DNA from: Cardiobacteriaceae bacterium
GTDB taxonomy: Bacteria; Pseudomonadota; Gammaproteobacteria; Cardiobacteriales; Cardiobacteriaceae
Length of the DNA: 34,370 bases
Reading direction: 5' to 3'
Assembly (NCBI GenBank): GCA_017934275.1
Contig: JAGBJT010000036.1
Location: 1-34,370, forward strand
The notes beneath the pieces are model-generated. The model did not search any database. It was not told the DNA's origin and saw only the letters and a program-made list of their open reading frames with translations. Each line of letters opens with the position of its first letter. Within the stretch, counting starts at the first letter, position 1. The position numbers and the translations under genes were made by a program. Positions 2,559 to 25,863 of this stretch are shown piece after piece.

Positions 2559-3290
2559 TTATTTATCTACAATAAACTCTGAAAAATGTCTATCAATTAT
2601 TCTTATTAGGTTGTATTTTAAGCCGCGGATTTTTCTTGGATTTAAGTGATTTTTGGTTTTTATTTCCCGTTCAATTTCTATATTACTAGGATTTTCACCG
2701 TAATTCTGACGGATTAAATCACTGAAATATAAGGAAATCTCCTTTTGCGGTAGAAGAAGACACCAAATATCTGTGAGTGTTGGAGTATCTTTTTGAATAG
2801 AAAGCAAGTTTTCCGCCGCTTGACGATCAAGAATATAGGCGTGTGCGTTATATATTCTCTCCAAGCTATAACGGGAAATTTGATAAAAATTATCAGCAAT
2901 TTTTTTACCCCAAGCCTTGGGATCCCCCCCCCCTAGAAGAATCATTGCATTTTTTGGAATTTTATCCGTCAGGGAAAAAGCTTTTTCGATAATTTCATCG
3001 CCGCCGATAATATCGTCTTCCAAAATTAAGCAATACTGTGCATCTGTTTGCAAAAATTCTTCATAAGCTTTTATATGCGATAAAGTGCAACCTAATTCAT
3101 TCGGGCTAATTAACACATTATATTTCGCAAGAGAACCTGAAAGATACTTAAAATATTCCTGAATATTTATTTTATTACCTTCAACTGCATCAATAATTTT
3201 GAATTCATTGTAAGAATTAAATTGCTCTTTCAGCTGTTTTCTACGCTCTTCATCTTTGGTAAGAGATATAACAAAAACGGGGTATTTCAT
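2559..3290 (-). CDS. GT25-family (LOS/LPS) glycosyltransferase with internal G10 tract
   Basis: This belongs to family GT25, the LgtB/LgtE/LpsA type that adds a sugar to lipooligosaccharide at the inner membrane. Features are an N-terminal MKYPVFVISLTKDEERRKQL strand-turn, ELGCTLSHIKAYEEFL, and the acidic LILEDDI metal/nucleotide-sugar motif at about residues 88-94. At 243 aa it is near full length. Codons 120-122 (Gly-Gly-Gly) lie in a run of ten G (coding strand, 2924-2933). The frame is open (ON) at ten; gain or loss of one G would truncate the protein. The start ATG has AGGAG formed by the last codons of the preceding kinase gene, a 1-bp gap that implies translational coupling. Acceptor and donor sugars are unknown. 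Confidence 0.85.
   Translation of the reverse strand: MKYPVFVISLTKDEERRKQLKEQFNSYNEFKIIDAVEGNKINIQEYFKYLSGSLAKYNVLISPNELGCTLSHIKAYEEFLQTDAQYCLILEDDIIGGDEIIEKAFSLTDKIPKNAMILLGGGDPKAWGKKIADNFYQISRYSLERIYNAHAYILDRQAAENLLSIQKDTPTLTDIWCLLLPQKEISLYFSDLIRQNYGENPSNIEIEREIKTKNHLNPRKIRGLKYNLIRIIDRHFSEFIVDK
2924..2933 (-). repeat. G10 homopolymer tract inside the GT25 gene (candidate phase-variation switch)
   Basis: Ten consecutive C on the plus strand (ten G in the coding sense) lie about 360 nt into the 732-nt gene. Slippage here would move translation out of frame, as known for neisserial lgtA, lgtC, lgtD and lgtG. The current length reads in frame. Confidence 0.85.
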
Positions 3291-3291
3291 T

Positions 3292-3930
3292 TTATTTACT
3301 CCTAATAGCTATTTTTGATACAAAATTCATCTCTTTTGCTTTATTTATTACTCTGTCGAACCACTCGATGTTCTTTTGAATATAAATATTATTTTCCCGC
3401 TTTTCGGCAATTTTTTCTAAATTAGCAAATTTCTGCTGCTGTTCATTTGCGATAACTTGACTATTGTCATAAAAATAGAGCACATCAGCGATTGGAATGA
3501 TTTTTACCAAATTATCAAAGCTTTGTACGAATCTTCTTTCAATAGTTTTTTCCTCTATATCGTGTCCTTTTTTTGCCACTCGAATTGCCACTCTTTGCTT
3601 TGCTAATTCTACACTGTTTAACCCTACATAGAACACTGTTATATGGTAATTATACATTTTTGCTTTTTCGATAAATTTAACAATCGAATGACCGCTTAAT
3701 GTGGTTTCGATGTTAAAATCTATTCCTTTCTGTAAATAAGAATTGCGCAGTTTAATTGCCAATCTTCCTGCGCGATTTTGGTCTATTGGATTATTCCAAT
3801 CGCCAAATTCGCGCACAATTTCATCTGAATTTATTCTTGCACCGTAAAAATCATCATCTTCTAATTGATTGATATAAAAAGTTGATTTTCCAGCACCATT
3901 TACGCCTGCAAAAATGTATAAATTCTTCAT
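3292..3930 (-). CDS. Zeta-toxin-like P-loop kinase
   Basis: The 212-aa protein begins MKNLYIFAGVNGAGKSTF, a Walker A motif at residues 9-16. It has INSDE shortly after, ETTLSG (substrate-side motif), and RVAIRVAKKGHDIEEKTIERRF, the conserved region of zeta-toxin/YmdB-like kinases. Known zeta toxins phosphorylate UDP-N-acetylglucosamine and block envelope synthesis. No epsilon-like antitoxin gene is visible on either side. It sits between two glycosyltransferase genes, 8 bp after the first and 1 bp before the second, so it is almost certainly in their operon. It could be a solitary toxin relic, a housekeeping nucleotide-sugar kinase, or a stress factor. The RBS AAGG precedes the ATG. The family call is firm; the role is not. 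Confidence 0.8.
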   Translation of the reverse strand: MKNLYIFAGVNGAGKSTFYINQLEDDDFYGARINSDEIVREFGDWNNPIDQNRAGRLAIKLRNSYLQKGIDFNIETTLSGHSIVKFIEKAKMYNYHITVFYVGLNSVELAKQRVAIRVAKKGHDIEEKTIERRFVQSFDNLVKIIPIADVLYFYDNSQVIANEQQQKFANLEKIAEKRENNIYIQKNIEWFDRVINKAKEMNFVSKIAIRSK

Positions 3931-3938
3931 TTTTAGCC

Positions 3939-4979
3939 TTAAATTATTTCTAGTAATTTATCAATATGCTCATCTAAACTCGGATTATAAGAAATGCACT
4001 CTTTGTGATTTTTTATTGCGGTTTTATTTTCTGCTTTCATTTTATCGGCTAATAATAATTTTTCTTGCAAATCTTTAAGATTATTGGGCTTAAAAAATAA
4101 ATTGTCGGTATTTTTAATCACTTCTACACAACCGCAATTATCAGCAAAAATAATTTTTCGACCGCACAAAATACTTTCAACTCCAACTAATCCGAACGGT
4201 TCATATTTTGAGGCAAGAATTGTAAAATCAGTTGCATTATAAAGTTCGGTCATATTATTAACTAAACCTAAATTGATAATTAAATCGTCTTCATATTTAT
4301 GTTTGCCGCAGAGAGCAATTTTTATCGGAAATTTAAGCTCGTTTTGAATATTTCTAATTGCTTGAATAATTAAGAATAATCCTTTTCTTTCGTGATCTCC
4401 TGATGGAAAAAGCAAGATATTTTCATTTTCCTTAAATCCGAATTTTTGCCGTAAATTTAACCGTTCATTTTTTGATAAAGGGTAGAATTTTTCCATATCA
4501 ACAGGTGGATAAATTGTAATAATTTTTTCGGCATCGATTTGATAAAACTTCTGTAATTCTTTTTTCATCAATTCTGAATGTGTAACAATTTTTTTCGCGG
4601 TTTTATAAGCAGAAAATCCGCGTTTTACCGTAAATTTATCTTTTAAGCTAGCTTTTTTCTGCATTGCTGATAAAAAACCAAGATGATTTCCACCGCAAAT
4701 TAAAATATCGGCATTGTCAATTAAACTTGTGGCAATAATTTTATAACCGTTCGGTATATTTTTTTGCACTCTTCGGTTAAAAATGGCATATCTAAATTGT
4801 GCAATTGGAAATTGTCTGAATACTTGAACAGGGCATATTTCGGAATATTCCTGTGAAGTTTTCATCGTAAGCACTTGTGTTGTAATTCTGCGCGATAAAA
4901 ATCCCTGCACCAAATCGAAAACATATCGTTCCATTCCGCCAGAGAGCTGAAATTTATCCGTTGCAATGCAAATATTCAT
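3939..4979 (-). CDS. GT4-family glycosyltransferase (LPS core type, WaaG-like)
   Basis: The 346-aa protein has the GT-B fold signatures of family GT4. The N-terminal half includes SGGMERYVFDLVQGFLSR (glycine-rich acceptor loop), and the interdomain region has TIYPPVDMEKFYP. The donor-binding half has LFPSGDHERKGL and the EX7E motif EPFGLVGVE. This is the layout of WaaG/RfaG-type enzymes that add a hexose to the LPS/LOS core from a UDP-sugar at the cytoplasmic face. It follows recG by 29 bp and precedes the zeta-like kinase by 8 bp. The start ATG has GGGAA upstream. Sugar specificity cannot be told from sequence. Confidence 0.85.
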   Translation of the reverse strand: MNICIATDKFQLSGGMERYVFDLVQGFLSRRITTQVLTMKTSQEYSEICPVQVFRQFPIAQFRYAIFNRRVQKNIPNGYKIIATSLIDNADILICGGNHLGFLSAMQKKASLKDKFTVKRGFSAYKTAKKIVTHSELMKKELQKFYQIDAEKIITIYPPVDMEKFYPLSKNERLNLRQKFGFKENENILLFPSGDHERKGLFLIIQAIRNIQNELKFPIKIALCGKHKYEDDLIINLGLVNNMTELYNATDFTILASKYEPFGLVGVESILCGRKIIFADNCGCVEVIKNTDNLFFKPNNLKDLQEKLLLADKMKAENKTAIKNHKECISYNPSLDEHIDKLLEII

Positions 4980-5008
4980 TATTTATTCCCAATCAGAAAT
5001 ATTTACAG

Positions 5009-7078
5009 CTATACCTGCAAATATTTTTCCTTTCCTTCTGCCCAGCGGTTAAGCAAAATTTGGCAGAAATTTTCCTCATTTTTCTTCCAATCGCAAACAA
5101 GATTTTCGGCTTTTTCGACTAATTCGCGGTCTTCGACTAAATCCGCGACCAGAAATCCTGCTTCGCCCGTTTGTTGAGTTCCGAGCAGTTCGCCAGCACC
5201 GCGGATATTCAAATCTTCTTCTGCAATCAAAAAACCGTCATTTGTCTTACGCATAATTTCTAAGCGGCGGCGCGCGGTTTTGCCGAGCACCTGATACATT
5301 AAAACGCAATCCGATTGCCGAGTTCCGCGACCGACCCGACCGCGTAGTTGATGCAGTTGCGACAGCCCAAAGCGTTCAGAATTTTCGATAATCATTAAAG
5401 AAGCATTCGGCACATCAACACCGACTTCGATAACCGTTGTCGCGACTAGTAAATCGATATTGCCCGTGGCGAATTCTTCCATAATTTCCCGCCGCCGCGC
5501 GCTTTCAATCCGCCCGTGAATAAGCGCGATACGAATTCCTGCAAGTTGCTCTTGTAGATATACATAAATTGTTTCCGCGTTTTCGCATTCCAGCACTTCG
5601 CTTTCTTCGATTAACGGGCAGACCCAATAAACCTGCGCGCCGGTGGCAACTTGTGCCTTAATTCTTTCGAGCAAAATTTCCCGTTTATCGCTAGAAATAA
5701 CCGTTGTTCGCACGGGAGTTCTGCCAGCGGGAAGTTCATCGATGATGGAAGTATCAAGTTCGCCGTAATTACTCATCGCCAAAGTGCGCGGTATCGGTGT
5801 GGCGGTTAAAACTAGCTGATGCACCGCCGTTCCCTGATTAGATTTTTCTTGTAATTTCAACCTTTGCCCGACCCCGAAACGGTGTTGCTCGTCGATAACA
5901 ATCAAGGCGAGATTGTGATATTCCACCGCAGTTTGAAATACCGCGTGCGTGCCGATGATTATTTGTGCCGTTCCATCTTTGATTTTGCCGAGGATTTCCC
6001 GTTTTTCTTTGGCGGTTTTTTTACTAATTAGTAAGACAATTTCTATACCAAGTCCAGCGGTATAACGACGCAAGTTTGCATCGTGCTGTTCGGCAAGAAG
6101 TTCCGTGGGAGCCATAAAAACCGCTTGCAAGCCAGCATCAACCGCGGCAAGACAAGCAAAAAGCGCAATCATCGTTTTACCTGAACCAACATCACCTTGC
6201 ACCAAACGCAACATCGGAATATTTTTTGCCAAATCCGCGGCAATTTCACGGCGCACTCTCTCTTGCGCATTAGTGAGTGAAAACGGTAAAGTCGCCAAAA
6301 ATTCACGAGTTTTTTCACCGTCGGAGGGCAGGGCAGGTGCGGGAAAACTTTGTAAATATGAACGAGCGTCCAACATTGCAAGACGATGTGCGGCAAGTTC
6401 TTCCAAAGCAAGACGATTGCGGGCGAGTGTAATTTCCCTTTTACCGTCATTCAAAGTTGGACGATGCAAAACATTTAAGGCTTGTTCCAGCGAAAAATAA
6501 CCGAGATTTGTCAAGGCATCTTGTGTATTTTTTTCGAAATAATTCGCCATATTTTTCAAAATCGCGGAAATCGCCGCTCGCCATTCTTGTTGCGGCAGAG
6601 TTTTTACCGTCGGATAAATTGCGCTTAAATTTGTTGATATTTCAGGAATTTCACCGTCTGCAAGCCAAGTCGTTTCAGGATGAGAAATAACAAAATTACC
6701 GTAAGGAGAAAGTTGCGCTTTACCGTAAAAAATACCGCGCCGTCCGATTTTGTATTGCTCTGTCTGATTTTTATAAAAATTAAAAAAAGCCAATTTGCAA
6801 ACATCGCCCGCATCATCGGCAATTTCGACATTCAAAACACGGCGTTTGCCCTGCACAATCGAACTTTTTAATACTTTTGCACAAACTTGTGCGACTTCTC
6901 CGTGTTGCAAAGCGGCAATTGGAGTTAAACGACAACGGTTTTCATAGCGGCTCGGTAAATGAGTAAGTAAATCACGCACGGTCAAAATACGGATTTTTGC
7001 CAAAGCATTTACCGCACGAGTGGAAATAATTTGCGGTAAATCTTTGAGTAATGTCGAAAAATCTATATCTTTTTGCAT
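5009..7078 (-). CDS. recG: ATP-dependent DNA helicase RecG
   Basis: RecG remodels stalled replication forks and branch-migrates Holliday junctions. The 689-aa length and domain order fit the family: an N-terminal wedge/OB region (with LTHLPSRYENR), Walker A GDVGSGKT near residue 296, the helicase motif II box DEQHRFGVGQR near 395, motif III LTATPIPRTLA, and the C-terminal ELLGTQQTGEAGF element. It lies 98 bp downstream of ridA and directly upstream of the glycosyltransferase cluster, all on the minus strand. The Shine-Dalgarno (GCGGAT) is weak. No defect is visible. Confidence 0.97.
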   Translation of the reverse strand: MQKDIDFSTLLKDLPQIISTRAVNALAKIRILTVRDLLTHLPSRYENRCRLTPIAALQHGEVAQVCAKVLKSSIVQGKRRVLNVEIADDAGDVCKLAFFNFYKNQTEQYKIGRRGIFYGKAQLSPYGNFVISHPETTWLADGEIPEISTNLSAIYPTVKTLPQQEWRAAISAILKNMANYFEKNTQDALTNLGYFSLEQALNVLHRPTLNDGKREITLARNRLALEELAAHRLAMLDARSYLQSFPAPALPSDGEKTREFLATLPFSLTNAQERVRREIAADLAKNIPMLRLVQGDVGSGKTMIALFACLAAVDAGLQAVFMAPTELLAEQHDANLRRYTAGLGIEIVLLISKKTAKEKREILGKIKDGTAQIIIGTHAVFQTAVEYHNLALIVIDEQHRFGVGQRLKLQEKSNQGTAVHQLVLTATPIPRTLAMSNYGELDTSIIDELPAGRTPVRTTVISSDKREILLERIKAQVATGAQVYWVCPLIEESEVLECENAETIYVYLQEQLAGIRIALIHGRIESARRREIMEEFATGNIDLLVATTVIEVGVDVPNASLMIIENSERFGLSQLHQLRGRVGRGTRQSDCVLMYQVLGKTARRRLEIMRKTNDGFLIAEEDLNIRGAGELLGTQQTGEAGFLVADLVEDRELVEKAENLVCDWKKNEENFCQILLNRWAEGKEKYLQV

Positions 7079-9737: not shown

Positions 9738-9762
9738 CCACCCATCAAAGGAATTTAGGTTT

Positions 9763-9869
9763 TATAGTCGTTCCACTTCAAAATAATACTGCGTTAGCTT
9801 CGCCTCGCCGTATTAGGCATACTGTCTTCGGCTCGCTGCCTTGTCTTATTTTGAATTGAAACGACTATA
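9763..9869 (-). repeat. Correia-like MITE, copy 2 (107 bp, reverse orientation)
   Basis: The ends are TATAGTCG...CGACTATA and the internal blocks match the other copies, reversed. Its right end abuts the TAA stop (9870-9872) of the first pilC gene. It is expected to be transcribed as a stem-loop in the pilC mRNA. Confidence 0.88.
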
Positions 9870-12800
9870 TTAACGGGAATTGAGCAAATCAATCTTCACT
9901 TCACGAAGCGATGTTCTCATAAACACACCGCGGCAAAGTTTAACCTTCAAATTTTCGTGGTCAAGTTCGCCCGTAGAAAGTGCAACATAAACCGCGTAAT
10001 CATCGTGAGTTAAGCATTTATTTTGCTTTTCCCGTTCGATTATTCGGGCAACGCTCGGATTTTGCGCATCAAATCCGATATTCAAATCCAAAATACCGTC
10101 GCCCAAACCGCCATTTGCATCGGTGCTTTCAATCACATTTTCGGAAGTCGATTTAATGGTAGAAGCGACTAGTTGTTGCGAAGCAATTGTTGTTTCGCTG
10201 GTAACTTGGCTATTTCCTTGATCGGGGAAGAATGAACGGTCTTCGTAAGTTGGCTCAAGCACCGCTTTATCTTCTTCGGCGACGGTAAATGAAAGTAGTT
10301 GCCGACCGATATAGTTTTCGTCGCAATTGTCTCCATCGCAGCGGAAAGTTACTTCATCTTGCGGTCCGCCAGTGAGGATATTTACTCCCATCAACCAAGA
10401 TGAACCAAGCGATTTTTCAACTTCAACTTTGGTATCGGTGAGAGCACAGCTTTCAACTTCTTCTTCGCCGTTAGAAATAGAAGGAACTCCATAATCATCC
10501 GCAGGCTGTTTAATCAAATATTGCCGCGTGGTAAACATCACGGTATTTAAGAGCATCGACGGCGAAGTAACGACTTGTTCCGGTGCCCAATGAACGAATT
10601 TACCGTCCATAATGTCCATTGTGAGCGGGTTAAGTTCCATATACCAACCGCGGAAATAACCTTCTTCGCAAACTTGGTTTTTATAAAGCGGAAGCAATGG
10701 TTTATCGCATTCTGGAATTTCCACGATATTTCTTTGCGAATCCCAAATATCGACAGTCTTGCCAGTCTCTAATTTATATGTATGACTTGAACCGTCAAAA
10801 TACCGCCAGAGTAGCTCATATTCTGTAATCGGTTCGGGATTGGTATCGGCTAAATTGTCATAAACACCGTAAAAGGCTTGTTGAGCATAAAGACGGCTCA
10901 TATCTTCACGGTCGTGGTCGAAAACATCAGAGCCCGTTCCGAATGCAATTACATAACGCAAACCGTCTTCATTATTTATCCGATAAACGGCAGGTGCGGT
11001 GGTAATCGGGCGGTATTCGCTGCCGTCATAAATCTTGTGTGCTTTCCATTGTCCGACATCGTAACGCAAATCAAAACGCCATAAATCGCCCGAATAATCT
11101 CCCGCATAAACAACATCGACGATACCGTCAAAATTCGTATCAACCGCGGTTGCTGGCGCAAGAGCATTTAAGCCGAAACGGTTTTCATCATTTCCTTTAA
11201 CTTCAATTGCCTTAATCAACTTGCCTGCTTGACCGTTAATTTTGCGCGGTGGATTTATGAAATTGTCGCCTGCAAGCGTGGAAATTCTTGCACCGTAATC
11301 GATACCGAGCGCATCAAAAATATACAAAGTCGGAGCTTTACCGTGTTCTTTATCAGGATTAGACAAATAACCGTTCGAAACAAAAGCCGCAACTGAAACT
11401 TCGTCCATTGCATTTGGCGTGGCGTTGCGGGTTTCATCAACATCGGTAGTTAGCGGGTTGTCGTTATTTTGGTTAGCGGTTTCTGCGGTAGTTAGCCAAG
11501 ATTTAGCGATATGTCCCATAACAGGTTTGCCGACGGTATAGCCAATATTTATAAACTCACCGTTATTGTTATCACCATAATTTGCGTGCCAAAGCGGTAG
11601 TTCCCGTTCTAATTTTTTCGCAACCGTCTCGTGATTTTGATAAGTGCTATCACCAACTGCATCTAAACCAACCGCTGTCGGATTAGGTTTAGATGAATCA
11701 AAACCACCGATATTGAGCGCAAAAATTCCCATTCCGCCTTGCCCGAGACCAGCGAGCAAGACAGCTTGCTGATTGCGGTCGAAAGTCGAAGAAGTAACGA
11801 TGTAAGAAATACCGCCATTTACACCATAAATATGTTCAATGTCGTTTCCATAACGGCTATCGGCTTGCAGCGGAAGAACATTGGATAACTGACCTAAACC
11901 GTCAATATTTGCAGCAGCGTTTTTGAGCGGCAAAAATTTCGCGACTTTGGAAGCTTCAACTGGCGCATCGGCTGGTAAATAATTCACCGCAAGAGAGTAG
12001 GGCGCAGGTGCGTCTTTTTTATTGCGTTTGTAGATGTAAAGCATTCCGTCATTTGAACCGACCGCCAAATATCCCGCTGGATCGTCCGTAGAACCATTCG
12101 CCGAACCGTTAATCGCCGCAACATCAGGAATAGAAACTGAGCTGGAATCAAGCACATCGCCCATCATTCTTTCGGTAAATTGATTTATCCGTTCCTTTGA
12201 GTTTGTAGTGCCGACCGAAACCGAATTTGAGCTTGCGCTGCTATTTTTGACAATTCCCAAACGGTCGCGATATTTAGGAATAAAACGATTTTCACTTGGA
12301 ATTTCGGCGGCTTGTTTTTCAATTTCTACATCGGCATCGGCGGAAACTCCACCTTTTCTACCGAGCCACGGTAAATATGCTGTTTGAAATTCCGTTTCAT
12401 ATCCCGTAAAACCGAAAATCGGCGCGTGTTCAGCGGAAATACTTTTAACACCAGTGCTGTTATTTGCAATACTTTTGTCTTGCACGAGTATGTGATACGG
12501 GTTTGGATAAGAGGCGACTTTAGATTGTTCTTCGTTTAATTCATCAGAAGCGGAAACTTCAAAATCGCTGTCGAATGTCCAGAAATTAAAGCGCGATGCC
12601 CAATTTCCCGTATGCACGGACAAAACGGATAAAACACCTTTCAATTCACCGTCGAAATATGATTTAGAAACTTCGGCGGTGGTGGATAAATTCGCAGGAG
12701 CGGCAATGGAAGTCGATTGCAAATCTTGAATTTCCGAGACTTTGGTTTCTTCATCAATTGCAGTGAATATTTTGGAAAAAGCTTCTTTTAATTCATCCTT

Positions 12801-13940
12801 ATAAATTGCATTGAGATAGCCAGGAATTCCTAATTGAACCGCATTATTAGCAAGACCTGGCAGAGATGCGGCTTCGAGATATTTTTGCGTATTCACCAGC
12901 GATTGAATTTCTCCGCCAAAACCGATGGTGTAAGTTTGAATATTTTGCTTGCCTTCAAACGGATTTCCTTCGACATCTAATTCATCGTCTGGTTTGAGAT
13001 CAGCTTCACCAGCACCGAATAATTGCCGTGAAAAATAAGCGATACCGTGCCCCGTGCCTTCATAACGCTTACCGTTATACATTTCAAATTTGCCAGTTTC
13101 AGGATCGTAAGTGGTATCCCAACGATAGTGATAAGAGCCGTCGTTCGGAGCAACCCAGTTATCGCCTAGCACTTGTCTGATAGGTGAATTCCAAGAACGC
13201 CAAGTAGATTGATCTACTGTATTTTCACCGCTCTTATCCTGTCCATAACTTGAACCATCAGTATTTGTCTCACCATCAGAAAGCACGACAATGTAATTCT
13301 TTTGACAGGCATATTTGATATTGTTATACATTTCATCGGCAGCGGAAACATAAGCAGCAGTCGTTGGAGTTGCACCGCCAACATATAAATTTGAAAACCA
13401 AGTCATAAATTTGCTGCCACTAGCAAACTCTCCCATTGGCATTTTTCTAGTAATGTTGTCGAATGTAGAACCGAAGGGATCACCGCCACCTTGCGGCCAA
13501 ATCGGTAAATATCCGAACTTGATTTTGTTTTCATATTCCGAACCTTGACCGATTAGCTCATTGAGCACGGAATACAAAATTCCAATCCGCGCTGGACTAC
13601 AACTAGGATTTCCTGCTCTCGCTATATATTCTCCAATAACCATGCAATCATCGGGAACGCCACCGTTGTGATAATCACCGTTACCAGTTGGATAAAACAT
13701 CATCGAACCAGAATTATCGATAACAAACAAAAGCCGTGGTTTTACGGTTGATTTTGTCGTGGTTGTTTTCTTTTCGGCTTCGAGATAAGCGGGGATTACG
13801 GAGAAGGAGATGTCGGATTTTTGTTGGTAATTTTGTTTAGAAGAATTTTCTTGTGCATTAGATGTAATACAAATGCCACAGCTTAACAAGGCAAGACTGA
13901 TTGCAGATGTAAGACGATGTTGTCGGTTTCGGTATGTCAT
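9870..13940 (-). CDS. PilC/PilY1-family type IV pilus biogenesis and adhesion protein, copy 1
   Basis: PilC/PilY1 proteins act at the outer membrane and pilus tip, supporting pilus extension and host attachment. The 1356-aa product has a Sec signal peptide (to about Ala29). A von Willebrand A-like domain follows with MIDAS DNSGSM (75-80) and VVLSDGETN. The C-terminal beta-propeller has the calcium site DTNFDGIVD near residue 935, followed by VVYAGDYSGDLWRFDLR. The tail RTSLREVK is shared with the second copy. The start ATG has AAGGAG 6 nt upstream. Exactly 122 nt upstream of the ATG lies an A18 tract (coding sense), a candidate transcriptional phase-variation site. Its mRNA appears to carry a MITE before the terminator. 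Confidence 0.9.
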   Translation of the reverse strand: MTYRNRQHRLTSAISLALLSCGICITSNAQENSSKQNYQQKSDISFSVIPAYLEAEKKTTTTKSTVKPRLLFVIDNSGSMMFYPTGNGDYHNGGVPDDCMVIGEYIARAGNPSCSPARIGILYSVLNELIGQGSEYENKIKFGYLPIWPQGGGDPFGSTFDNITRKMPMGEFASGSKFMTWFSNLYVGGATPTTAAYVSAADEMYNNIKYACQKNYIVVLSDGETNTDGSSYGQDKSGENTVDQSTWRSWNSPIRQVLGDNWVAPNDGSYHYRWDTTYDPETGKFEMYNGKRYEGTGHGIAYFSRQLFGAGEADLKPDDELDVEGNPFEGKQNIQTYTIGFGGEIQSLVNTQKYLEAASLPGLANNAVQLGIPGYLNAIYKDELKEAFSKIFTAIDEETKVSEIQDLQSTSIAAPANLSTTAEVSKSYFDGELKGVLSVLSVHTGNWASRFNFWTFDSDFEVSASDELNEEQSKVASYPNPYHILVQDKSIANNSTGVKSISAEHAPIFGFTGYETEFQTAYLPWLGRKGGVSADADVEIEKQAAEIPSENRFIPKYRDRLGIVKNSSASSNSVSVGTTNSKERINQFTERMMGDVLDSSSVSIPDVAAINGSANGSTDDPAGYLAVGSNDGMLYIYKRNKKDAPAPYSLAVNYLPADAPVEASKVAKFLPLKNAAANIDGLGQLSNVLPLQADSRYGNDIEHIYGVNGGISYIVTSSTFDRNQQAVLLAGLGQGGMGIFALNIGGFDSSKPNPTAVGLDAVGDSTYQNHETVAKKLERELPLWHANYGDNNNGEFINIGYTVGKPVMGHIAKSWLTTAETANQNNDNPLTTDVDETRNATPNAMDEVSVAAFVSNGYLSNPDKEHGKAPTLYIFDALGIDYGARISTLAGDNFINPPRKINGQAGKLIKAIEVKGNDENRFGLNALAPATAVDTNFDGIVDVVYAGDYSGDLWRFDLRYDVGQWKAHKIYDGSEYRPITTAPAVYRINNEDGLRYVIAFGTGSDVFDHDREDMSRLYAQQAFYGVYDNLADTNPEPITEYELLWRYFDGSSHTYKLETGKTVDIWDSQRNIVEIPECDKPLLPLYKNQVCEEGYFRGWYMELNPLTMDIMDGKFVHWAPEQVVTSPSMLLNTVMFTTRQYLIKQPADDYGVPSISNGEEEVESCALTDTKVEVEKSLGSSWLMGVNILTGGPQDEVTFRCDGDNCDENYIGRQLLSFTVAEEDKAVLEPTYEDRSFFPDQGNSQVTSETTIASQQLVASTIKSTSENVIESTDANGGLGDGILDLNIGFDAQNPSVARIIEREKQNKCLTHDDYAVYVALSTGELDHENLKVKLCRGVFMRTSLREVKIDLLNSR

Positions 13941-14062: not shown

Positions 14063-14080
14063 TTTTTTTTTTTTTTTTTT
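14063..14080. repeat. T18 tract (A18 on the pilC strand), candidate phase-variation site
   Basis: Eighteen uninterrupted T on the plus strand begin 122 nt beyond the pilC copy 1 start codon. It is one of the two longest homopolymers in the window; the other lies at the same distance from pilC copy 2. Length change would alter promoter spacing or curvature. Confidence 0.8.
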
Positions 14081-17112: not shown

Positions 17113-17175
17113 GCTATGTTTAACGATGTCTTTCTGTCATTACCGATGAATTAAAATTCGCCAAATTTTACCTCT

Positions 17176-17281
17176 TGTAGTCGTTTCAATTCAAAATAAG
17201 ACAAGGAAACGAGCCGCAGACAGTATGAGAATACGGCAAGGCGAAGTTGACGCGGTATTATTTTGAATTGGGACGACTATT
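17176..17281 (+). repeat. Correia-like MITE, copy 3 (about 106 bp), overlapping a gene end
   Basis: Its left end is degenerate (TGTAGTCG instead of TATAGTCG) and its right end is ...GGGACGACTAT. Its right 24 bp, read on the minus strand, form the last codons and TAA stop of the neighbouring Cys/Met-metabolism gene. Central blocks (GACAAGG, GAGCCGCAGACAGTAT, ATACGGCAAGGCGAAG) match the other copies. Confidence 0.85.
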
Positions 17282-18421
17282 TAAGGCCTGATTTATATCC
17301 GCCCAAATATCTTCTACATTTTCAATACCGATAGAAAAGCGCAACAGACCTTCGCGAATTCCTAATTTATCCTTACTTTCCTGCGGAAGTCCGCTGTGCG
17401 ACTGGCTTGAAGAATGATTTACTAAACTTTCCACTCCGCCCAAACTAGACGACATTTGTATTAGTTTGAGAGACTTTATTACGGTATTTGCAGCACTTCT
17501 GCTGTCATCTTGCAAATAAACCGAAACCACACCGCCGAAGCCGCGCATTTGCTTTTTCGCTAAATCGTGAAATTCGTTATTTTTAAGTCCTGGATAAAAA
17601 ACTCGCGCAATTGCTGGGTGATTTTCCAAGCGTTCGGCGATGATTTGCGCGTTTTCCTGATGTCTATCCATTCTGATGGCAAGCGTTTTTATTCCCCGTA
17701 ACACAAATGCACAATCAATTGGAGCAGCCACCGCACCGCTGTGAATTTGCATATTTTTAATTGCCGCGGCGTGTTCCTTATTTTTTGTAACTGTAATACC
17801 CATTAACACATCTGAATGACCGCATAAGTATTTTGTCGCAGAATGCACGACGATATCGCAGCCTAAATCCAGCGGATTTTGCAAATATGCTGTGGCAAAT
17901 GTGTTATCAATACCGACAATTGTCCCGTATTTGTGTGCAATTTTGGATAATTTTTGAATATCAACTAGGCGTAATAAAGGATTACTCGGAGTTTCCAGCC
18001 AAAGCATCTTAACCCGTTGATTTTTAAGGATATTTTCTAGATTTTCCGCCTCGGTTAAATCCGCAAAAATAACATTTATTCCCCATTTGGCATAAATGTC
18101 ATTCAATAAATCAAAAGAACCGCCGTAAATATCGGCTACCGCCACAATCGTATCTTCGGGCTCTAAAAGTGCGCGCCAGACCGCATCAATCGCTGCAACT
18201 CCGCTACTAAACGCAAAACCAGCATTGCCGTTTTCAAGTTCCGCCAAAGTATCTTCCAAAATCTGCCGCGTTGGATTGGACAGGCGCGAATAACGGAAAG
18301 GAATTTGCTCGCCGATTTCCTTCATCGCGAACATACTGTTTTGATAAATCGGCGGCATAATCGCGCGGTTATGCTCGTCAGGGTTATAAGCTGCGTGAAT
18401 TGCTTTGCTTTCAAATTTCAT
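17258..18421 (-). CDS. Cys/Met-metabolism PLP enzyme (cystathionine gamma-synthase/lyase type)
   Basis: The 387-aa protein belongs to the MetB/MetC/MccB fold-type I family of transsulfuration. Visible signatures are SRLSNPTRQILEDTLAELE, FSSGVAAIDA, YGGSFDL, WLETPSNPLLR, VGIDNTFATAYLQNPL and the PLP lysine in HSATKYLCGHSD near residue 197. SSSLGGVESLV near the C-terminus is typical. Whether it makes cystathionine, splits it, or releases sulfide is not decidable by eye. The start ATG has AAGGATT upstream. The last residues SRPNSK and the TAA stop are encoded by the terminal inverted repeat of MITE copy 3, so the native C-terminus has been replaced or trimmed. Confidence 0.9.
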   Translation of the reverse strand: MKFESKAIHAAYNPDEHNRAIMPPIYQNSMFAMKEIGEQIPFRYSRLSNPTRQILEDTLAELENGNAGFAFSSGVAAIDAVWRALLEPEDTIVAVADIYGGSFDLLNDIYAKWGINVIFADLTEAENLENILKNQRVKMLWLETPSNPLLRLVDIQKLSKIAHKYGTIVGIDNTFATAYLQNPLDLGCDIVVHSATKYLCGHSDVLMGITVTKNKEHAAAIKNMQIHSGAVAAPIDCAFVLRGIKTLAIRMDRHQENAQIIAERLENHPAIARVFYPGLKNNEFHDLAKKQMRGFGGVVSVYLQDDSRSAANTVIKSLKLIQMSSSLGGVESLVNHSSSQSHSGLPQESKDKLGIREGLLRFSIGIENVEDIWADINQALNSRPNSK

Positions 18422-18501
18422 TTTTTAATCCTTAAATAATTCCGTGAAAAGAATTTTATTTATTCTTTTTATGCCGTAAATATGAAATATTTTTCCGTTC
18501 T

Positions 18502-18608
18502 TATAGTCGTTTCAGTTCAAAATAAGACAAGGCAGCGAGCCGAAGACAGTATGGCTAATACGGCGAGGCGAAGCTAACGCAGTATTATTTTGAAATGGAA
18601 CGACTATA
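18502..18608 (+). repeat. Correia-like MITE, copy 4 (107 bp, best-preserved ends)
   Basis: The ends TATAGTCGTTTCAGTTCAA and TTGAAATGGAACGACTATA form a terminal inverted repeat of about 24 bp with two mismatches. The element is flanked by AT-rich sequence and lies upstream of the transsulfuration enzyme gene. Confidence 0.9.
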
Positions 18609-18665
18609 TAATTATCGGTAATAAGTTTTAGCACTCTTCAATATTATTTTTTTACACCGTTAAAT

Positions 18666-21313: not shown

Positions 21314-24300
21314 TTAGCGTTCAAGCATTTTCACTTCCCGTAGTGAAGTTCTGATGAATGAACCGCCGCAAGGTTTAACTACCAATCCTTTTTGGATCAT
21401 TCCCGAACTCGAACCAGAAGCATAGATGCCGAAATCTTGAATGCCGTTGTTGCCTTTGGCACATTGGTTATTTTGTGCTTTGCCTGTTAGAGCAGATTTG
21501 CCAACAACACCAGGATTGGTTAGCTCACCGCCTTGCACACCACCGTTTTGGTTCAAAGCATCGCGGAGTTTGTTTGATTCAGATGCGCGTTGTATGACAG
21601 TTGCCGACAAAATTTCGTCATATTTATCACCAACAAACTCACCTTCTTTTGCAATCGCTTTTTTGCGTTCTTCTTCCGTCATTGCATTGAGTTCATCTTC
21701 GCTACGGCGGTCTTTGGCGAAGGTAATCGAATCTGAATTCAACTTACCGCCAGTGAGAACATTCAATCCCATAAACCAAGAGTAGCCTTTGGTGCTTTCT
21801 TTTTCGGTAAATTTAGAACCTGAATGTGATTCGCCAGTTGTCGTGGAAGTTGATTTCTTTTTCCGTTCATACACGGTTACGATTTTGCGTTGCTCGGTAG
21901 TGTCGTGCGTTCCGCAAGTTTCGCCAGCATCCGCTGTTCCGTGATTTAGAACTGGAGATGACGAAATTACAACCCAGTCACCTTCGTTTTTTGATACTTC
22001 TTCAAAATCGTCATTGCCTTCAAGAGTATCACTTTGACTGGTCATATTCGGAGTTAGGAAAGATATACCGATAGCTGAACTTTCAATTGAATAAGCCCGA
22101 GTTGTAAAGAACACACCTTCAAAAAGCACATCAGGTTGCACAACTACGCGTTCGCTGGTTACGCCAGTTCCGTCGCCGTTATCGTGTCCTTCATCAAGCA
22201 GAACTTTCCAACCTTTGTATTTACCGACTAAATTTGGATATTCATCAAGTCCGTCAGCGCGCTTACGGATATAACGGCTTTCGCCTTCAACCTCCAATTT
22301 TTGCTCGATAAGTTGATTTACTCCCGCAGCTTCTGGCTTCTCGTCGGTCAAATCATCGTAAATGCCGTACATTGCCTGACGCTCGCCAGCTGATTCTCTA
22401 TCTTTGTGATAAATATCCGAGCCCGTTCCGAAAACTACGACATATTTATCACCTGCAATTTTTCCTTCTTCCAATAACTTCTGTGGAATACGATAAACCG
22501 CAGGAGCTGCCGTAATCGGTTGAGTTGCTTCACCGTTGAAGATTTTTACTGCGCTCCATTTAGATGGAGCACCGCGCAAATCAAAGCGATACAAATCACC
22601 GTTGTAATCACCTGCATAAGCAACATCAGCAATACCGTCAAAATCGACATCAACTACCACAGGAGCGGCAAGGGCATTGATGCCATTTGCGTGTTCTTCT
22701 GCTGGTGCTTCGATTTTTTTAATCAAAGTTCCGCCATGACCGTTTTTGAACGCCTGCGGTTTTTTGAGAGAAAAATTCACACCCAATGCGTCATATATAT
22801 ATAAGGTAGGTTTGCCATCGTGATTGTGCCGTTCGCTTGCAGATGCATCTTTTGCACCAGTCGGAAAACCGTTTGCGATAAACGCTGCAACTCTGATATC
22901 ACCCAAAGGATCTACAACTTGCCGTTCGCCTTTTTCATCGAGTTTCCAGTCTTTGGCAATCGGATAAGCCGAAGGTTTAGAAATGGTGTAACCCATTTTG
23001 CTGTCGCCTTTACCGTTATAAACTTCCCAAAGTCCGCCGTCTTTAATTGATTTTTCGAAACCAACAGGAGCATTTTCAGCCGCACTAGTTGGATCATTAC
23101 CGTTAGCAAGCAAGGCATAAGCACCGCGACCGCCTTGTCCCATATTGCCGATGACTAGCGTTTCACGATTGCGAACTGCCTCATTTTTATCGTTCAATGC
23201 AGAAGCGGTAGTCAAAAGCGCAAATCCGCCATTTACTCCATACATATGTTGTATTGCAGTTCCGTAACTAACATCAGCAATTTGACTTAGAGCTTCACCG
23301 AGAGTTTCACCTTCTTCTCGCGGCATACGGTATGGCAGATAATTGAATTTCAAGTCATACGGAGATACGGTAGTTGTATTACGCTCGAATGCATAAAGCA
23401 TACCGTCGTTTGCACCCATCAAAAGATATTTCGCGTTATCGGTTTTATCTTCTTCAAGTTCTCTACCGTCGGTATTTGGAATTGCAAGAGCACCAGCATC
23501 TAAAACATCGCCCATTTGCCGTTCGTATTCAGGCTCACCGTTCGCAAGACGGTCGCGATATTGAGAAACAATTTGCTCGTCTAAATTCAACTTTTCAATA
23601 TTTTCAGCAATTTGCTTATCTGTTTGACTAGCGTCGCGTAAGAGCCACGGCCAGAAACCATTAGCAAATTCATCTTTATATTTCAACTTGGAAAAACCAA
23701 ATTTTTTCGGCAACAGAACGTATTTTTTCGCGCTATTTAGGTCAAAAACTTCATAGTTATTTGCTGCAACAGGATGTTTAGCTAAAACTTGGCGATTTTT
23801 TGGGAAATTAGCTAAATTTGCAGGAGTTTCACCTTTTTCATAATCCGCTTCATTACATAAATAACCGCCGTCATTCATCTTGTCGCAGAAATCGCCTTGT
23901 TTGACGCTTGTTCTATAAATCCGATAGAATTTTAGAGCTGAACTCCAATTGCTAGTGTTGATGTTCAAAATGCTCATCAAACCGTAGTTGTTGCCAACAT
24001 CCGACGGATATTTAGATACATCAAGCGAACTTGTTGCAATCGATACAGGAGAGGCAAGGGCGGTGGTAACTAATCCGCCAGTTTCCGTTGTAGAGCTTTC
24101 AGAAGTGCTAGTTTCGGTTTTATCCGTGTCAGTTTTCTTATCGTCGGAATATTCAACTTCTTTGGTAGTGCTAGAAGTTCCGATTACGGTAATAGCAGAA
24201 AATAAATTGTCGAAAGCAGCAGTTAAGTCATCGCTATCGGAAACATCTACATAACCTGGACCGAATTTCGCACCTTTTAATTTGTCTTGCAAGTCAGGAT

Positions 24301-25726
24301 CAATCCGCACTGCACGACGCAAATATGCACGACCGTTGTCAGACAAATCATCACCAAGCGCAATTGCAATTGTCTGAATATGCTGACGACTTGCACCTGT
24401 TCCATAAGGACGACCTTCAATATCGTTGCCAGTTTTGAGCGTATTTTTATAAACCTTATCGGAGAAATATTCCGCACCGTTCATAACGGAACCAGCTGGA
24501 CGCGTGTCTTTTGATGCATTTGAATTTATAGCACCTTCGATTTTTAATGGTTCGCCAGTTCCTCTTTTTGAACCAATTGATAAACACCAACCGCGCCCCA
24601 TAGTTTCAGGGTTTGAGGGATTTTCGGCGAATAATTCAGCCAATCTAGAACTGAAACAAGTTTGGACTCTACTGTTTGTTGAGAAGTACCACCAATCTTT
24701 GTTTTTCCAACCGTCATCACCGCCTTCTGAACTTGGAACACCATCTACATATGTTGCAGCGTAATACAAATAGTAGTCTGATAACCAGCCAGCTCTATTC
24801 TTGCGGAATTCCGAATTAAGTTCATAAATATCAGCTAGTGGTGAATGTTTTGCTCTGTATGATGTTGCACTTACATTGTGGTGATTTTTGAGTATTCCTT
24901 TACCGCGCAATTCTGTTTTGTCTGGTTCTTGACCAACATCCTCGTTTGTATCACCGTCAGATAGAAAAATAATGTAGTTCTTTTGACAAGAGTATTGAAT
25001 AGCGTTATAAGCATGATCGACAGCAGAAACATAAACCGCCGTCGCTGGTGTCATTCCATATGGTGCGAAACTTTGGACATAACTATTGATTACTTTACCG
25101 TTTGTGTATTGTGGGTGAAGAACTTGATCATTTATGTTGTAATTACGGAAAGTCCCAGCGTTAAGCCACCAGTATGGAATAACATTGTAATAAGCACCAT
25201 ATGCATATTTATCACTACCGATAGTTGCATTCATAGCATCTTGCAGACGCTGCATTCTCGTTTTCCCTGAATCATTTTCTTTTGACATACTTCCCGAGTT
25301 ATCGAAAAGCAGAGTAATTCTTGGTAAAACTCTTCCGCTACCGCCGATGCGAGTTTCAATTACGGTTTCGGTGATTTTTTCGCCAACTTCTAGCTTATTC
25401 ACGATTGTTTCTGATTTACTCCAACCGCTAGTCTTCGTAACTTCACTATCTAAATAAGCAGGGACTGGTGCGAATGGAGATGCTGTATAACTGTCATAAG
25501 TGCTGTCTGAATCATCGCTTGAAGTAGATGAACCACCATCATCAGAATCACCTGAAGAACTGGAAGAGCTAGGGATATTAGTAGTGCTACCTGTTCCATC
25601 TGGATCATCGAGAGAATGATGTTGATATTGTGCAAATGCACTAAAAGTTATGCTGCTAATTCCTAAACAAATTGCCGTAGAAAGCAAAAGAGGGGATTTC
25701 AGCGCGTCTTGGATTTTCTTTTTCAT
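21314..25726 (-). CDS. PilC/PilY1-family type IV pilus biogenesis and adhesion protein, copy 2
   Basis: The 1470-aa paralogue of the first pilC gene. The start is the ATG at 25726 (MKKKIQDALKSPLLLSTAIC), with AAGGA upstream and a good signal peptide ending near Ala32; an upstream ATG at 25801 would put 25 residues before it. A Ser/Asp-rich linker (about 50-80) is absent from copy 1. MIDAS DNSGSM is at 142-147, with IIFLSDGDTNED after it. The C-terminal propeller has the calcium site DVDFDGIAD near 1025, followed by VAYAGDYNGDLYRFDLR. The tail is RTSLREVKMLER. A T15 tract (coding sense) lies 122 nt upstream of the ATG. The divergent vWA regions suggest different adhesive properties. Confidence 0.9.
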   Translation of the reverse strand: MKKKIQDALKSPLLLSTAICLGISSITFSAFAQYQHHSLDDPDGTGSTTNIPSSSSSSGDSDDGGSSTSSDDSDSTYDSYTASPFAPVPAYLDSEVTKTSGWSKSETIVNKLEVGEKITETVIETRIGGSGRVLPRITLLFDNSGSMSKENDSGKTRMQRLQDAMNATIGSDKYAYGAYYNVIPYWWLNAGTFRNYNINDQVLHPQYTNGKVINSYVQSFAPYGMTPATAVYVSAVDHAYNAIQYSCQKNYIIFLSDGDTNEDVGQEPDKTELRGKGILKNHHNVSATSYRAKHSPLADIYELNSEFRKNRAGWLSDYYLYYAATYVDGVPSSEGGDDGWKNKDWWYFSTNSRVQTCFSSRLAELFAENPSNPETMGRGWCLSIGSKRGTGEPLKIEGAINSNASKDTRPAGSVMNGAEYFSDKVYKNTLKTGNDIEGRPYGTGASRQHIQTIAIALGDDLSDNGRAYLRRAVRIDPDLQDKLKGAKFGPGYVDVSDSDDLTAAFDNLFSAITVIGTSSTTKEVEYSDDKKTDTDKTETSTSESSTTETGGLVTTALASPVSIATSSLDVSKYPSDVGNNYGLMSILNINTSNWSSALKFYRIYRTSVKQGDFCDKMNDGGYLCNEADYEKGETPANLANFPKNRQVLAKHPVAANNYEVFDLNSAKKYVLLPKKFGFSKLKYKDEFANGFWPWLLRDASQTDKQIAENIEKLNLDEQIVSQYRDRLANGEPEYERQMGDVLDAGALAIPNTDGRELEEDKTDNAKYLLMGANDGMLYAFERNTTTVSPYDLKFNYLPYRMPREEGETLGEALSQIADVSYGTAIQHMYGVNGGFALLTTASALNDKNEAVRNRETLVIGNMGQGGRGAYALLANGNDPTSAAENAPVGFEKSIKDGGLWEVYNGKGDSKMGYTISKPSAYPIAKDWKLDEKGERQVVDPLGDIRVAAFIANGFPTGAKDASASERHNHDGKPTLYIYDALGVNFSLKKPQAFKNGHGGTLIKKIEAPAEEHANGINALAAPVVVDVDFDGIADVAYAGDYNGDLYRFDLRGAPSKWSAVKIFNGEATQPITAAPAVYRIPQKLLEEGKIAGDKYVVVFGTGSDIYHKDRESAGERQAMYGIYDDLTDEKPEAAGVNQLIEQKLEVEGESRYIRKRADGLDEYPNLVGKYKGWKVLLDEGHDNGDGTGVTSERVVVQPDVLFEGVFFTTRAYSIESSAIGISFLTPNMTSQSDTLEGNDDFEEVSKNEGDWVVISSSPVLNHGTADAGETCGTHDTTEQRKIVTVYERKKKSTSTTTGESHSGSKFTEKESTKGYSWFMGLNVLTGGKLNSDSITFAKDRRSEDELNAMTEEERKKAIAKEGEFVGDKYDEILSATVIQRASESNKLRDALNQNGGVQGGELTNPGVVGKSALTGKAQNNQCAKGNNGIQDFGIYASGSSSGMIQKGLVVKPCGGSFIRTSLREVKMLER

Positions 25727-25848
25727 AATTTTGTTCCTTATAAATTTATGAGTTGAACTGACAAAAATTGCCAAGCGCGAAAACAGCACGGTAAAAACCA
25801 AAAATTGTCGATTTAATCTGTTTTTTTAATATTTACAATGAAAGTTGC

Positions 25849-25863
25849 AAAAAAAAAAAAAAA
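25849..25863. repeat. A15 tract (T15 on the pilC strand), candidate phase-variation site
   Basis: Fifteen uninterrupted A on the plus strand lie 122 nt from the start codon of pilC copy 2. That is the same distance as the tract at pilC copy 1, but with complementary base on the coding strand. Confidence 0.8.

Follow-up and report, generated by a model that had tools for sequence, protein, structure and literature searches.

A run of ten G within a GT25 glycosyltransferase gene (Table 1) is very probably a translational phase-variation (contingency) switch, to judge from the 34,370-nt stretch of DNA analysed as a whole, hereafter the window, and from its comparison with related genomes. The window belongs to a draft MAG of 1.40 Mb in 63 contigs, 73% complete. 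Its host is an uncultured rumen Cardiobacteriaceae of the class Gammaproteobacteria, not a Neisseria, and the neisserial setting evoked by an earlier note on this DNA has to be given up. The mechanism is that of a classical slipped-strand contingency locus; what is new is the lineage, since no earlier report of phase variation in Cardiobacteriaceae was found in the literature searched on Cardiobacterium or on simple sequence repeats and phase variation in the rumen. A rumen bacterium would thereby join the mucosal pathogens in which phase variation of surface sugars is chiefly known. Members of the family have been reported as associated with the rumen epithelium, a finding that a meta-analysis did not confirm (PMC7915655).

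The product of the gene is predicted to be a GT25 enzyme with a GT-A fold, in agreement with the family assignment of the earlier note. Indeed, its match to PF01755 in a profile search reaches 91.1 bits for a gathering cut-off of 24, and the best fold matches, at E about 1e-8, are two GT25 enzymes, human COLGALT1 (9evk/9evj) and a bacterial beta-1,4-galactosyltransferase (8xlz). The structure model was built from a nine-sequence alignment and is of moderate confidence (pLDDT 67). A scan of viral contigs returned distant GT25 enzymes only, with 20–25% identity, and these were taken into the GT25 alignment. The EDD motif (DxD-type metal/sugar-nucleotide motif, E91-D92-D93) is invariant in this alignment. 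Furthermore, D174, encoded 3' of the tract, is invariant across the nine aligned sequences and is missing from every frameshifted product.

Table 1. Features of the window and homopolymeric tracts of the host and sister genomes
Feature	Stretch	Positions	Strand	Details
G10 homopolymeric tract, proposed slippage switch	window	2924..2933	-	ten C on + strand; ON length
GT25 glycosyltransferase gene	window	2559..3290	-	243 aa, open with G10; PF01755 E 1.1e-25
AGGAG, candidate Shine-Dalgarno-like sequence	window	3299..3303	-	8 nt before GT25 ATG, within end of upstream gene
Zeta-toxin-like / AAA_33 P-loop kinase	window	3292..3930	-	PF06414 E 2.9e-8, PF13671 E 8e-8
GT4 glycosyltransferase, first gene of cassette	window	3939..4979	-	PF00534 E 3.9e-20
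PilY1/PilC-like adhesin gene	window	9870..13940	-	downstream of A18; PF05567 E 9e-25; NF040838 1.5e-34, below its cut-off
A18 tract	window	14063..14080	-	122 bp upstream of PilY1-like gene; A16 in sister ortholog
Second PilY1/PilC-like adhesin gene	window	21314..25801	-	likely ATG near 25726; PF05567 E 3.5e-40; NF040838 1.1e-57, below its cut-off
A15 tract	window	25849..25863	+	precedes second PilY1-like gene by about 120 bp; reads T15 on the strand of the gene; A17 in sister
PilY1-A tract				C13 (ON); C10 in sister (ON)
PilY1-B tract	L016	3032-3045		C14 (OFF); C12 in sister (ON)
PilY1-C tract	L022	3015-3023		C9 (OFF)
CAP-domain surface protein tract				C19; C9 in sister; both ON
YadA-like adhesin tract				C9 (ON)
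PilY1 with tract at codon 135				G9 (ON)
LRR protein tract				G11 (ON)
GT2-type surface-sugar glycosyltransferase beside UDP-galactopyranose mutase	sister			G12 (ON)

The tract covers codons 120–122 and the first base of codon 123, in frame, and the run of ten G in the coding sense with its open frame, on which the earlier note was built, is real. Among the tract lengths from which phase variation is called, ten G ranks low, a point against the switch, but it exceeds the criterion of at least nine uninterrupted G in a coding region, with the length of the run setting the frame (PMC5953494). The predicted product has 127 residues with G8, 191 with G9, 243 with G10, 128 with G11, and 192 with G12. 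The assertion that nine or eleven G would truncate the protein at about half length is correct for G11, and G8 behaves likewise, but not for G9, whose product comprises about 121 native and about 70 aberrant residues. The switch would operate by replication strand slippage in living cells, with a single G gained or lost in the tract: G10 would yield the full enzyme, and G9 or G11 would lose the frame right after the Gly-Gly motif and with it the C-terminal half, including D174, so that the frameshifted product should be inactive. A counterpoint to this proposal is that the G9 product would keep 191 residues, its inactivity being presumed.

No other G or C run of at least 8 bases is present in the window, and overlapping 8-base G/C matches number three in it, for 0.12 expected by shuffling. 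The glycines of the tract align with the Y-F-G-G-N motif of other GT25 enzymes, at the end of a central strand, and it may be argued that the run merely follows from the need for Gly-Gly(-Gly) in the GT25 fold, GGG having arisen by drift and no consequential switching taking place. In keeping with this explanation, Gly-Gly is kept in the GT25 relatives and both assemblies compared carry the gene in its ON length, an observation that also counts against a switch. However, the relatives encode the pair with mixed codons and their longest G run is 5, while GGG makes up 32 of the 626 glycine codons (5%) in the genes of the window, and the chance of three consecutive GGG by codon choice is about 1e-4. 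The closely related gene discussed below has, moreover, kept an uninterrupted run despite synonymous divergence, and the host genome holds 11 runs of this kind, mostly in surface genes, for 0.05 expected. We consider the by-product explanation improbable.

The sole close relative of the gene in species-level collections is found in the Cardiobacteriaceae MAG RGIG4814 (JAFUTP010000058.1), a sister species recovered from roe deer reticulum. The two proteins share 90% of their residues, while about a third of the fourfold sites (18 of 54) differ between the genes. The tract reads CTG-GGG-GGG-GGA-TAC (G9) in the sister and CTA-GGG-GGG-GGG-GAT (G10) here; both are in frame, with changes in the flanking bases. 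In this one close relative the tract is therefore uninterrupted, and the interruption in relatives that would have spoken against slippage control is not observed. A class-wide search of 369 genomes gave matches (E <= 1e-8) in 11, the best one outside the genus being 38% identical, and no poly-G run was found in the class homologs with an alignable site. The tract is absent from relatives at 38% identity or less, which therefore points to its acquisition at the level of the genus; it would have originated by codon changes to GGG across a Gly-Gly motif generally kept by GT25 enzymes. The sister genome also bears on the possibility of an assembly or sequencing error, homopolymers being error-prone and the host genome a draft, 73% complete MAG. 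Such an error is extremely improbable here, given that the gene reads through the tract in an open frame and that the sister MAG independently has nine G at the corresponding site, likewise in an open frame.

The GT25 tract is not an isolated case in the host genome. Pattern searches identified 11 G runs of at least 9 in the 1.40 Mb, for 0.05 expected under a 4th-order Markov model. Of the G runs of at least 6 here, 11 of 58 (19%) are 9 or longer; across ten further Cardiobacteriaceae genomes the proportion is 52 of 2259 (2.3%; Fisher odds ratio 9.9, p 2e-7). Most of the G/C tracts are located within, or right after the start of, genes encoding PilY1 adhesins, autotransporters or LRR proteins, and the PilY1-like genes begin with ATG-AAC-AGA-TTC-CCC..., the poly-C following straight after the start codon. 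The tracts of two further stretches (L018 and L015), intergenic or unclear, were left out of the switch count. Tract lengths clearly differ between the two species at the PilY1 and CAP-domain surface-protein genes. Two PilY1 genes, PilY1-B and PilY1-C, have their start codon out of frame with the downstream frame; because these frames, of more than 1000 aa, are intact behind the tracts, both genes are apparently caught in OFF phase, as expected of switches, rather than being pseudogenes.

This genome-wide excess, together with the evidence from the sister species, makes the slippage control proposed in the earlier note likely. The GT25 tract would then belong to a set of about a dozen, a phase-variable repertoire shared across the genus and made up mainly of surface adhesins, with poly-G/C tracts as numerous as in some Neisseria. 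Frame control could also be exerted on RNA rather than DNA, through slippage of RNA polymerase or the ribosome on the ten G, which would deliver a mixture of products from one genotype; long homopolymers can provoke transcriptional slippage. Yet the frame of two PilY1 genes in this genome is already lost in the DNA itself, and the lengths of orthologous tracts differ between species, as DNA slippage would produce, so that we deem RNA-level control very improbable. As for the origin of the tracts in a mismatch-repair deficiency, both the host and the sister genome encode a full-length MutS, which rules out a MutS defect as their source. On the other hand, intact MutS is a counterpoint to the DNA-level switch favored here, as slippage rates may be low.

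A few other tracts deserve mention. The G10 tract of stretch L017, in a paralog of the 327-aa type, is not regarded as a switch, since a long frame is not recovered at any tract length. Paralogs of this secreted 327-aa protein adjoin a PilY1 gene (L017 2976-3386, L013 5339-6322, and L087 4977-5960). The L017 paralog has the N-terminal part in common with the others, but from the G10 tract onward its C-terminus is short and unrelated, as would result from an exchange of C-terminal cassettes. In the sister genome, a C16 tract (L012 8500-8515) is located about 140 bp upstream of a gene for a 1358-aa surface-protein-like product, and a -10-like TATACT follows about 12 nt after it, an arrangement resembling promoter-spacer phase variation.

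The GT25 gene is the last of a cassette in which it is preceded by the GT4 gene and the zeta-like kinase gene, with gaps of 8 and 1 nt, the kinase gene stopping 1 nt ahead of the GT25 start. The same order is kept in the sister genome, where the GT4 and kinase counterparts are found at positions 4310-5350 and 5360-5995 of stretch L012, and the cassette described in the earlier note is thereby borne out. Synteny breaks at the GT25 stop, which is followed by a repeat element and a Fic gene here and by other genes there. Since GT25 is the last gene of the cassette, only the addition of a terminal sugar would switch. The acceptor may be LOS, an O-chain or a glycoprotein: the neighbors (recG, RidA, GT4, zeta-like kinase, and Fic) include no core or lipid A gene and do not tell the acceptor, which leaves the earlier assignment to LOS a guess. 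The G10 tract also offers a concrete marker: its length could be scored in the rumen metagenome reads that already exist, and switching thus measured in a natural population.

Phase-variable glycosyltransferases and pilus-tip adhesins have been described in other bacteria. In Neisseria, the LOS glycosyltransferases lgtA/C/D/G are switched by poly-G tracts of typically 9–20 G that set the frame (PMC5953494); the GT25 gene shares with them the poly-G frame switching of a glycosyltransferase and differs in the class of the host. The earlier note had seen in the GT25 family a departure from these classic types, but GT25 genes with homopolymeric tracts are already on record in Helicobacter. Indeed, the GT25 galactosyltransferase genes HBZC1_04760-04800 of H. 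bizzozeronii carry C19 tracts, one of them mid-gene (PMC3234257), and HP0619 of H. pylori, a lex2B homologue, has been called phase variable (PMC1599737). What they share with the present gene is a homopolymeric C/G tract that interrupts a GT25 gene with a putative role in surface glycans. The Helicobacter genes differ by their Campylobacterota host and their longer tract (C19), whereas the present tract is G10 or G9, coincides with a conserved Gly-Gly motif and belongs to a GT4-zeta kinase-GT25 cassette in a Cardiobacteriaceae MAG. Likewise, the PilC/PilY1 pilus-tip adhesin genes pilC1 and pilC2 of Neisseria are turned ON or OFF through the frame by a G/C tract in their 5' coding region (PMC5320596), and pilC poly-G phase variation is classical in this genus (PMC5320596, PMC5953494). 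Compared with pilC, the tract here directly follows the start codon and encodes poly-proline ahead of the signal peptide, and several tract-bearing PilY1 paralogs occur in one genome.

Both PilY1-like genes of the window are accompanied by a long poly-A tract. A runs of at least 13 number 39 in the host genome (0.26 expected) and 27 in the sister but 0–2 in each of the other ten family genomes, and are hence genus-specific. In the stretches examined, their lengths are 13–20, while 11–12 are absent and 9–10 almost absent. Among 64 distinct tracts, C precedes the run in 59 and follows it in 55, and the length is not the same in 11 of the 14 pairs of orthologous tracts. Most of the runs stand a short way ahead of genes for exported proteins. 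Signal peptides, called by a simple rule and with a few genes counted twice as stretches overlap, occur in 21 of the 31 genes located at most 200 bp downstream of a poly-A tract versus 19 of 113 others (Fisher p 1e-7). In six tracts TTGAC stands directly 5' of the run, most of them having a -10-like hexamer 15–18 nt past the -35 hexamer, and the run may there be the promoter spacer; other poly-A tracts end transcription hairpins. The nearest mechanistic precedent, with a long A/T tract near the promoter of a surface adhesin, is the T-tract of the H. pylori sabA promoter, whose length tunes transcription (PMC4081817). The present case differs from sabA by about 40 tracts in one genome, 13–20 nt long and mostly bounded by C.

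These tracts leave us evenly divided on a wider proposal drawn from the sequences, namely that expression in this ruminant-gut Cardiobacteriaceae genus is stochastic in two layers. About a dozen coding poly-G/C tracts (GT25, PilY1 paralogs, autotransporters, and LRR) would act as ON/OFF switches, and some 40 A13–A20 tracts, promoter-proximal, narrow in length range and upstream of a large share of the genes for exported proteins, would act as transcriptional rheostats. The poly-A tracts may merit a study of their own more than the GT25 tract.

Other elements were noticed alongside. A Cas9-like gene start (MSGKNYIIGLDLGIASVGWACVEV; stretch L097 2030) is located 79 bp downstream of an A18 tract. 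The near-palindrome GACAAAAATTGTC, possibly an operator or a repeat element, has nine exact copies in the window (14083, 14124, 17100, 25917, 25951, 27498, 27561, 27797, and 28974), several of them as facing pairs 30–65 bp apart that adjoin the poly-A tracts of both PilY1-like genes, and it is also found upstream of a PilY1 gene in stretch L019. Finally, a MITE-like repeat of about 105–120 bp with inverted ends (TATAGTCGTTTCAGTTCAAAATAAGACAAGG...CGACTATA) occurs at 9760-9879, 17173-17284, 18492-18611, and 2414-2520, the last copy lying directly downstream of the GT25 gene.
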